Assembly: GCA_947168485.1 (NCBI GenBank)
Contig: CAMVLZ010000003.1
Coordinates: 1-32,996, forward strand
From: an uncultured Bacillota bacterium
GTDB lineage: Bacteria; Bacillota_I; Bacilli_A; RF39; UBA660
DNA length: 32,996 bases
Reading direction: 5' to 3'
Shown: piece by piece, positions 24,837 through 30,668 of the stretch
How positions within the stretch are numbered: position 1 is the first letter of the stretch
How the letters are laid out: every line of letters begins with the position of its first letter
Made by a program: the position numbers and the translations under genes
The notes under the pieces: generated by a model
What the model saw: the letters and a program-made list of their open reading frames with translations, nothing else
Told to the model about the DNA's origin: nothing
Databases searched by the model: none

Positions 24837-24852
24837 AATATTGGTGATATTT

Positions 24853-25182
24853 ATGTATATCAAAATTAATAGTAAACAAATTAAATTAGAAGAAAAAACT
24901 ACTTTTAAAGAGAGATTTAAAAGTCTTAGATTCAATTTTACTGAGTTAAAACATGCGATTAAGTTTCCTAAGAAAAGATTTTTAAATACAGTATTCTTTG
25001 TTCAAAGAGTTGATATTGCTTTAACTGATAAAGAAGATAGAATAGTTTATTTAGAAGAAAATGTTAAATCAGAAAGATACTTTATACATAAGAAAAAAAC
25101 ATATAATGTTTATTTATTACCACTTAGTTCAGTTAAACATCTTGCTATAGGAGATTATATCAAAACATATAATAAAAAATAG
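24853..25182 (+). CDS. Small DUF192-like protein
   Basis: 109 residues starting MYIKINSKQIKLEEKTTF. The pattern is that of DUF192 (COG1430): an early TTFKERFKSLRF segment, the core LNTVFFVQRVDIALTDKEDRIVYLEENV, then YNVYLLPLSSVKHLAIGDYI. The family's function is unknown. Unlike many members there is no signal peptide or lipobox, so it should be cytoplasmic. The ATG at 24853 is preferred over upstream TTG and GTG codons because GGTGAT lies just before it. It is a single gene with its own promoter and terminator. The family match is by pattern only. Confidence 0.65.
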   Translation: MYIKINSKQIKLEEKTTFKERFKSLRFNFTELKHAIKFPKKRFLNTVFFVQRVDIALTDKEDRIVYLEENVKSERYFIHKKKTYNVYLLPLSSVKHLAIGDYIKTYNKK

Positions 25183-25203
25183 TATGTAATAATACTATTT
25201 TTT
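25174..25203. terminator. Bidirectional intrinsic terminator
   Basis: Perfect 12-base arms AAAAAATAGTAT / ATACTATTTTTT around a 6-base loop. It overlaps the stop of the DUF192-like gene and of the convergent HEPN-like gene. Confidence 0.85.
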
Positions 25204-26634
25204 TAATGATAAAATATGTTCTTTTTTTGTTTTTTTACTATTGACATAGGTTTCTGACCATTCTATAAATTTATGCATTTTAATTGAGCCAACATATTCT
25301 AAGTTATTACTTTTATTATTTCTTGGATCAGCATCATACATTACTAATTCTGTATCTTTAGATATTAACCATCTACCATGAACTAATGAGTTTCTTATTT
25401 TTTCTGTTTCATATGTAATATTATCTATTGTTATAGTTTCATCTGTACAATAATGTGTTATCACAGAATCTAAATACATTATTGAAGGAACCACTTCTAA
25501 AAAATCTCTTGAAATCATATTATGCATAAAAAATATTTGATTTCTTTTACTCTCAGTAAAAATATAACTTAAAATCATAGAATCTATTTCATTATTTGGA
25601 AGTATCCTTTCAGTAGAATATAAATCATTAATTGAATTAATTATATCTGTTTTAGATAACATAGGATTACCATAAAACCCTCCTGCTAATATTAATTGAT
25701 CATATAATGTGTCTTTTTTAAAATCAGGTATAGATAATGATTGATTTAAAAAATAATCAGTCATTGTAGTAGTATGTGTTTTTAGTAATTCAGGCATTAT
25801 TTTTATATATAATTTTTTTAACGAACAGAATTTTTCTTTTTCTATTTTGGTCATTTTATATTCATATGGATCTGCAATACTAATTATATAATCACACAAC
25901 TCTTTTTCTATTCTTTTATTTTCTTCTTCTGAAGTATTATCTTCAGTTTGTAATTTATTTATTTTTTCTTTTTGATCTTTAGTTAATTTTTTAGGAAATA
26001 AATAATTAGTTATTTTAATTTTATCTAGTTCTTTATATAAGTTCTTTGAAAAAATGTTAAATTTTGTTAAGTCAATAGTGTAATATGGTGTTGTTCTTGA
26101 TTTGTTAATAATATTATCTAACACTTTATTTAAATAATCTAAATTAAATTTAATACTAAATGGTTTAATTTCTTTTGATGTTGCTATTTCTTTTGGTGTT
26201 CTTAAATCTTTAAAAGATATTTCTATATTTTTAGCGTTTTTTGATATTTTAAATCTATCGAATTTTGGATCATTATTATGATTGAATGCATTCCTAATAA
26301 GACGAATTATTTGTTTATTGCTTATATTATTAGATGATTCAATTTTAATTAGATCTTCTTTTAAATTATCTAAATCATCATCAACTATATAATTATCTCT
26401 ATTGAGAACATGATCTTCTGAAAAAGAAAATATTTTCATAATACAATATATTATGTATACATTTCTCATGGTATCGTAATATTCTTGTGTATTATCTTCT
26501 TTTCTGCCATTAAAAGTCATATATATATTAAAACATTTTCCTATTGATAAGTTTGTGGCATTATTTTGAAAATAAGCTATTTGAGCATAATCATGTAGAT
26601 ACTGTATCATTTCTTCTTTTGTCATTGATACCAT
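25195..26634 (-). CDS. Two-motif HEPN-like protein (putative ribonuclease), unknown family
   Basis: 479 residues, soluble, Asn/Lys/Ile-rich. Two copies of the HEPN ribonuclease motif RNxxxH are visible: RNAFNH at R114-H119 (in IIRLIRNAFNHNND) and RNSLVH at R414-H419 (in TEKIRNSLVHGRW). Each follows a helical region, and each is followed by a strand-rich stretch (KNIEISFKDL and ISKDTELVMYDAD), the usual setting of HEPN domains. The middle (about 150-380) is helical and charged, with KLTKDQKEKINKLQTEDN-type coiled coil and no ATPase or nucleotidyltransferase motif. Two HEPN sites in one chain can form an intramolecular RNase site, as known for Cas13; here size and context argue against Cas13. 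AAGGAG lies nine bases before the ATG. It is a lone gene with its own promoter and terminator between housekeeping genes, consistent with an accessory or defence gene. The motifs are seen directly; RNase activity and role are inferred. Confidence 0.75.
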   Translation of the reverse strand: MVSMTKEEMIQYLHDYAQIAYFQNNATNLSIGKCFNIYMTFNGRKEDNTQEYYDTMRNVYIIYCIMKIFSFSEDHVLNRDNYIVDDDLDNLKEDLIKIESSNNISNKQIIRLIRNAFNHNNDPKFDRFKISKNAKNIEISFKDLRTPKEIATSKEIKPFSIKFNLDYLNKVLDNIINKSRTTPYYTIDLTKFNIFSKNLYKELDKIKITNYLFPKKLTKDQKEKINKLQTEDNTSEEENKRIEKELCDYIISIADPYEYKMTKIEKEKFCSLKKLYIKIMPELLKTHTTTMTDYFLNQSLSIPDFKKDTLYDQLILAGGFYGNPMLSKTDIINSINDLYSTERILPNNEIDSMILSYIFTESKRNQIFFMHNMISRDFLEVVPSIMYLDSVITHYCTDETITIDNITYETEKIRNSLVHGRWLISKDTELVMYDADPRNNKSNNLEYVGSIKMHKFIEWSETYVNSKKTKKEHILSLKK

Positions 26635-26662
26635 CTATTCCCACTCCTTTTTAATGCAGCAT

Positions 26663-26691
26663 ATTATATCATTAAATATTTCTAAAATCAA
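26663..26691 (-). promoter_or_regulatory. Promoter of the HEPN-like gene
   Basis: Minus strand TTGATT (26686-26691), 17-base spacer, TATAAT (26663-26668) with an extended TG. About 29 bases before the start codon. One of the best promoters in the window. Confidence 0.65.
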
Positions 26692-26717
26692 TAAAAAAGA
26701 CTTGTCTATACAAGTCT
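26692..26717 (-). terminator. Intrinsic terminator after the HPt-receiver gene
   Basis: Stem AGACTTGT / ACAAGTCT, 4-base loop and T tract on the minus strand. Confidence 0.85.
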
Positions 26718-26718
26718 G

Positions 26719-27609: not shown

Positions 27610-28320
27610 TTACTTTTTAATTAGTTTTTTATTAAATAAAACTGGATATGGATCATCAAATTGTTTTAATGATTCTTCTCCTAAGATTCCTAAATTATTA
27701 TCTTCAATACCAGAACTTGCAAGATACTTCATATTTCCTATCCAATCATAGAATATATCATCATCTATATCATAATAATTCTTAATTGGTGGACATCCAC
27801 ATAATGCAACTATGAAATCTAAATTATGAGTTGTAGCATATCTAATAAATAATTCAGTACTTTCACATGGCATGAAAGCTATCATAAGAGAATCTTCATC
27901 CACTTTAGTATCTTGAGTAAACATCTCTCTTTTTATTACTAAATTATCTAGATTATAATCTGTAGGATGCATTAATGGATCATATACAGTTACTTTTCCT
28001 TTAGTTTGTTTAGATGCTATTTGAAAAGATAATCTAGGTATTGGTCCACCTGCTACTTCTACAATATTTCTATCTATTGAGAAATTTTCTTCTATTTTTT
28101 TAATAAAATTTAGATAGATACTTGTTTTCTCATCTTCAAATCCAAATAAGTCATATGCTTGTCTTAATAATGGATATGTTAGAGAACTTCTTCTTCCAGT
28201 TAATGTTGCCCTTTTTAATCTTTCTAATTCTTCTTTATCAGGAGTGTATTTTTCTATTGAGATGAAATAGTCGATTAATGTTTTCTTTATTACGTCGTCA
28301 GGTATATCTTTCTTTAACAT
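27610..28320 (-). CDS. Rossmann-like, possibly methyltransferase-fold protein coupled to obgE
   Basis: 236 residues, soluble. An N-terminal helical part (1-80, with RLKRATLTGRRSSLTYPLLRQ) is followed by a Rossmann-like segment: NIVEVAGGPIPRLSFQIA (about 85-102) resembles methyltransferase motif I, then KVTVYDPLM with D114 where the ribose-binding acid would sit, then LMIAFMPCESTELFIRY and LDFIVALCGCPP. A glycine-rich loop with GGPIP in place of GxG and a Cys pair (CGCPP) are unusual. The start codon overlaps the obgE stop (TAATG) and there is no clear RBS, so translation depends on coupling. Function unknown; the SAM-dependent methyltransferase idea is inference. Confidence 0.7.
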   Translation of the reverse strand: MLKKDIPDDVIKKTLIDYFISIEKYTPDKEELERLKRATLTGRRSSLTYPLLRQAYDLFGFEDEKTSIYLNFIKKIEENFSIDRNIVEVAGGPIPRLSFQIASKQTKGKVTVYDPLMHPTDYNLDNLVIKREMFTQDTKVDEDSLMIAFMPCESTELFIRYATTHNLDFIVALCGCPPIKNYYDIDDDIFYDWIGNMKYLASSGIEDNNLGILGEESLKQFDDPYPVLFNKKLIKK

Positions 28321-30570: not shown

Positions 30571-30668
30571 ATTTACCTCCTTCTTTTAATCTTAAGACTC
30601 GCTTTTAAGGTAGAATAAATTCTTTTTAAGACCTTTTCAATGCGGTTTGAGAGCTAGAGGCTTCAAAC
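30571..30668 (-). ncRNA. L21 leader RNA (cis-regulatory 5' UTR of rplU)
   Basis: The roughly 100-base leader between the promoter and rplU folds into a first hairpin with arms GTTTGA / TCAAAC (30645-30668) and a second stem with AAGGT / ACCTT (30607-30635) enclosing AGAA / TTCT, followed by GCGAGTCTTAAGA. Position and layout match the L21 leader family of Bacillota, where excess L21 is thought to repress its own operon. The family match is by layout, not by a covariance search. Confidence 0.65.

Follow-up and report, generated by a model that had tools for sequence, protein, structure and literature searches.

HEPN RNases cut RNA at a site that is made by the R and H residues of two HEPN domains. 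As a rule, these enzymes are homodimers in which each chain has a single motif, and the presence of two motifs in one chain is the hallmark of Cas13. Cas13 carries its two HEPN domains in a single polypeptide, and 12 clusters of the AlphaFold database in which two HEPN domains dimerise within one chain have been described, two of which are Cas13an and ten of which are uncharacterised (PMC12165695). The HEPN superfamily is already well known and similar uncharacterised two-HEPN proteins have already been reported (PMC12165695), and the protein analysed here does not constitute a new category; the family to which it belongs may be among the ten non-Cas13an clusters of that study. This protein of 479 aa is encoded in a stretch of 32,996 nucleotides, the whole of which is referred to below as the window. 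The explanation that we favour, with a probability of roughly 0.55, is that it is a stand-alone single-gene HEPN RNase whose two halves form one site, and that it likely acts in phage defence by abortive infection.

The features of the gene and its immediate surroundings are given in Table 1. A first-pass annotation of this DNA had attributed a strong promoter and an own terminator to the gene. An extended -10 is indeed present in TTGATT-17-TATAAT, and a similar -10 is located upstream of the paralogue and of most homologues, but the match is rated as fair only. The second attribution was not upheld: all that is found downstream is the A/T-rich inverted repeat, which is probably a terminator common to the gene and its convergent neighbour. 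On the other side, the hairpin of the Hpt-receiver gene sets the cassette apart from that upstream gene. Most homologues share an M-x-x-M start with both Met codons in frame (26623-26634 in the window), and the start may be either M1 or M4.

Table 1. Position of the two-motif gene, its signals and its conserved elements in the window
Feature	Position	Strand	Basis or remark
Gene for 479-aa protein with two HEPN-type motifs	25195..26634	-	ORF and homologues
Motif 1, R114-N-A-F-N-H119	26278..26295	-	R and H invariant in 14/14; position 115 is N or D
Motif 2, R414-N-S-L-V-H419	25378..25395	-	R, N and H invariant in 14/14
Invariant R421-W422 directly after motif 2 (HxRW)	25369..25374	-	alignment
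Invariant D434 in predicted beta stretch past motif 2	25333..25335	-	alignment; weak AF2 secondary structure
Codons 181-375, poorly conserved region between the motif halves	25510..26094	-	mean pairwise identity 19-21%
Promoter-like site TTGATT-17-TATAAT with TG before the -10	26663..26691	-	fair extended -10 match
Shine-Dalgarno-like GGAG, 9 nt 5' of ATG	26644..26647	-	read from sequence
Clear terminator-like hairpin of upstream Hpt-receiver gene	26698..26717	-	
A/T-rich inverted repeat across both convergent stop codons	25174..25203	.	
1,536-bp stretch from stop codon to stop codon of the flanking genes	25183..26718	.	

The two RNxxxH motifs reported by the first-pass annotation, about 300 residues apart, were confirmed in the 479-aa ORF. 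Exactly two R[ND]xxxH motifs are present in each of the 14 intact homologues, the same-genome paralogue included, with motif 1 located within residues 107-124 and motif 2 within residues 372-427. In alignment A2, which consists of 14 proteins that are 18-42% identical to the window protein, only 13 of the 479 positions are invariant (M1, L13, F35, M56, D74, R114, H119, R414, N415, H419, R421, W422 and D434). Both R/H pairs are thus unchanged even in homologues with as little as 18% identity, and the poor conservation of R and H named by the first-pass annotation as evidence against its proposal was not found. If the invariant columns were placed at random, R114, H119, R414 and H419 would all be invariant with a probability of ~3e-7, a rough figure in which residue type is ignored. 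In A2 conservation is highest at the two motifs (mean pairwise identity 39% and 45%) and lowest in residues 181-375 and the C-terminal tail (19-21%). Moreover, at least two R[ND]xxxH motifs occurred in 0.085% of 20,000 shuffles of the residues of the window protein, and among all ORFs of at least 150 aa at the fetched loci only the family members and two ORFs at L034 contain a double RNxxxH motif.

When profiles of the N- and C-terminal parts were aligned with each other, the best local match placed motif on motif (IRNAFNHN/IRNSFVHG), a match that spans 8 columns and has a low probability, and no alignment between the halves was obtained outside the motif. Low-confidence AF2 secondary structure gives a hint of the same arrangement in both halves, namely helix up to the motif, then strands, and then helix. 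Each half of the chain contains an R-N-x-x-x-H motif of the HEPN type. As suggested by the analogy of Cas13 and of homodimeric HEPN enzymes, pairing of the halves is probably intramolecular, and their packing inside one molecule would bring R114/H119 and R414/H419 together into a composite RNA-cutting site. The variable stretch of residues ~181-375 is a candidate sensor or regulatory part that may keep the site inactive or sense the trigger. Activation of the enzyme by a phage product would then lead to cleavage of cellular or phage RNA, by which infection would be halted.

A less probable arrangement, which would still make the protein a HEPN RNase, is that each chain contains two HEPN domains but that the sites are formed between chains, two of them in each dimer, which would be domain-swapped or head-to-tail. 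The majority of HEPN proteins form homodimers (PMC12165695), and two equal sites would also need both motifs to be intact, as they are. However, two full motifs in a compact chain permit an intramolecular pair, as in Cas13an of 429-577 aa (PMC12165695), and the strong dissimilarity of the halves is as seen in specialised asymmetric pairs; we give pairing between chains a minor share.

Profile searches covered a sample of 386 species, all from the bacterial family of the source genome, and detected members of the protein family in 14-15 of them; one search included two weak matches, which a second search dropped. These species counts are lower bounds, since few candidates pass the initial filter of the genome search. 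No members were detected beyond this bacterial family in samples of the class and phylum. The proteins are 457-562 aa long; one is encoded by an uncultivated Bacilli genome from water-deer reticulum, and the 1.26-Mb draft genome to which the window belongs encodes a paralogue elsewhere that is 45% identical. One copy (G040, L023:979-2457, minus strand), located directly after secA, is broken by an in-frame TAA, and both motifs are readable across its two pieces.

The proposal that the gene is inserted among housekeeping genes was supported by comparison with congeners. In G001 and G002 the gene is missing from this site: the stop codon of the Hpt-receiver gene directly meets that of the ORF matching 24841-25182, with zero bases between the genes, where the window has 1,536 bp carrying the gene. 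G002 contains its own family copy at another site, in a defence island. In addition, the flanks of G221 and G383, which belong to one genus, are 84-97% identical at the protein level (about 90%), and their family members are 22% identical and occupy different slots. The family tree, many branches of which are weakly supported, is discordant with genus. The gene thus behaves like a roving single-gene cassette.

Four of the 14 copies are located near AbiU, AbiD, type III R-M or PD-T7-3/GmrSD genes. The copy in G361 has an AbiU neighbour (E 6.9e-128), that in G213 an AbiD neighbour (E 1.5e-56), and type III R-M genes are located near that in G100. The island of G002 (L027:206-4266) encodes a NOV_C protein, a GmrSD_N-HNH protein, a PD-T7-3 homologue (E 1.1e-20) and an AAA protein, followed by the gene with two HEPN motifs. 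The AbiD neighbour in G213 counts for little, because AbiD-type genes are present in most of the family-bearing genomes. For the other ten copies, that of the window included, no known defence gene was seen by eye among the neighbours, which were scanned in part, and no family member matched an anti-phage system model (PADLOC-DB 2023). The link with defence is suggestive only, since AbiD-type genes are common in these genomes and most copies, again including the one in the window, have housekeeping genes around them. The patchy distribution, the turnover of alleles and the four defence-rich neighbourhoods nevertheless support it, and of the two roles put forward by the first-pass annotation, defence or RNA decay, it is housekeeping RNA decay that fits the patchiness poorly. 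Counting against the explanation that we favour, no homologues were found in phage or plasmid collections (tblastn) or among viral contigs (IMG/VR), and many defence genes occur in such phage and plasmid collections. In G361 the AbiU gene is directly followed by a gene for a 306-aa protein (L032:12572-13489, plus strand) that contains an RDFSQH motif and has no Pfam match.

Single-gene mobility and rapid turnover would also suit a selfish gene. The protein could then be a toxin that belongs to a selfish or stress module, or the product of another mobile RNase gene, that has no function in phage defence and whose antitoxin is encoded elsewhere or is an RNA; HEPN toxins do occur in toxin-antitoxin pairs (PMC4621449). 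Against this, no conserved small gene adjoins the family gene at any of the 14 loci, no known RNA family (Rfam) is located beside it, and the cassette in the window leaves no space for a partner, the stop codon of the neighbour being 12 nt downstream and the upstream side being taken up by the promoter and the terminator of the other neighbour. Together these results make a toxin unlikely. The statement that no antitoxin or other partner is nearby extends to the family: no MNT nucleotidyltransferase antitoxin adjoins the gene, and no neighbour of any kind recurs within 5 kb of the 14 loci. Because the loci have no partner gene, this suggests that sensing and cutting would take place in the same protein.

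In agreement with the view that the protein belongs to no named family, searches of Pfam, NCBIfam, PADLOC and PDB gave no match to the window protein, no HEPN family scored above its cut-off, and no member of the family gave a significant HEPN-family profile match in Pfam, NCBIfam or PADLOC. The divergence of HEPN families is often too great for a profile match to serve as a test. The consensus of the first half matched HEPN pEK499_p136 over the motif region at a sub-threshold E of 0.062, and a single weak match to the window protein, unnamed, was obtained in PHROGs (E 0.016). Two further consensus matches, DUF4340 and DUF4367, did not reach the cut-off (E 0.003-0.006) and were put down to chance, and DrmC matches of one family member (E 0.01-0.02) are not credible. 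AlphaFold was run with two sequences only, the window protein and L005, and gave a pLDDT of 47.3 for the whole protein and 45.7 for residues 262-479; on these models of pLDDT 46-47, Foldseek and VIA-align returned low-scoring unrelated structures only, which are uninformative as to the fold. The lack of a HEPN profile above cut-off and the low pLDDT of models built from two sequences count against the explanation that we favour and, taken by themselves, would suit a non-HEPN helical protein in which the RNxxxH motifs are a structural coincidence. This is, however, distinctly improbable, given that both R/H pairs are invariant amid 18-40% identity and that double-motif ORFs are rare in the same DNA.

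Least probable of all is an RNA-guided or RNA-regulated nuclease of the Cas13an or AbiF pattern with its guide or inhibitory RNA encoded elsewhere. The proteins are of a size (457-562 aa) comparable to that of Cas13an (429-577 aa), and a fusion of HEPN genes of the AbiD/F type, which co-occur with RNA RF03085, is the presumed origin of Cas13 (PMC12165695). Against this, there is no CRISPR array in the window, as had been noted before, or CRISPR-like array at the other family loci examined, no Cas1 in the 13 family-bearing draft genomes (control genomes gave positives), and no Rfam RNA of the RF03085 kind at the gene.

Some observations were made on other genes. At L034 of G285, a gene for a 742-aa protein with RNGIIH at position 118 and RNCFAH at position 670 (L034:5840-8065, minus strand) has 29 nt in common with the end of the family gene, which it overlaps; the protein has no detectable sequence relation to the family, and no relatives of it were found in 126 sampled genomes. 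A 470-aa protein encoded at the same locus (L034:13247-14656, minus strand) is related to it, with 38% identity over 63 C-terminal residues; it has kept a C-terminal motif, RNCSSH, and its N-terminal motif looks lost. Neither of these two proteins has a match in PADLOC. In the window, the product of gene 27610-28320 (minus strand) has an identity of only ~31% with the protein encoded at the corresponding position in two congeners, compared to 53-88% for its neighbours, which indicates unusually fast change or replacement. The window also contains an ordinary ribosomal protein L21 leader at 30585-30657 (minus strand; RF00559, 38.9 bits).

Going beyond the explanation that we favour, we tentatively consider that the family could be an undescribed family of HEPN nucleases in which a single chain pairs internally to form the site, acting without guide or partner as a one-gene phage sensor, and a living analogue of the fused-HEPN stage that has been proposed between AbiD/F-type proteins and Cas13; we regard this wider proposal as doubtful rather than probable. 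A two-motif family of Cas13an size that is free of guide and partner would help to test the pre-CRISPR origin of fused HEPN nucleases, and would be a further candidate defence system, consisting of one gene, in uncultivated gut Bacilli. Clean point mutants for testing are offered by the two motifs.

Compared by description and not by sequence, the family resembles Cas13an in having two HEPN R-x4-H motifs in one chain of ~430-580 aa. It differs in that Cas13an adjoins a CRISPR array (PMC12165695), whereas the loci examined here have no array and the family-bearing genomes no Cas1. HEPN pEK499_p136 (PF18736) provides the best HEPN hint for the first half, but its model comprises one HEPN domain and the score is far under the gathering cut-off. 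Tha, a tail-activated defence protein of S. aureus prophages, is a lone HEPN protein with the abortive RNase role that is proposed here, and its R265-NSIM-H270 resembles motif 2; in contrast to the window protein it is 301 aa long, has one C-terminal HEPN, is a predicted homodimer and is accompanied by an inhibitor gene in the prophage (PMC11087260). AbiD/AbiF (Abi_2, PF07751) proteins are the products of stand-alone phage-defence HEPN genes and contain an RNxCAH motif. The Abi_2 profile matched no member of the family at E values up to 1, and the profile alignment is confined to the 7-residue motif. The main difference lies in the architecture: AbiD/AbiF proteins have one motif in ~300 aa, whereas the family described here has two in ~480 aa.
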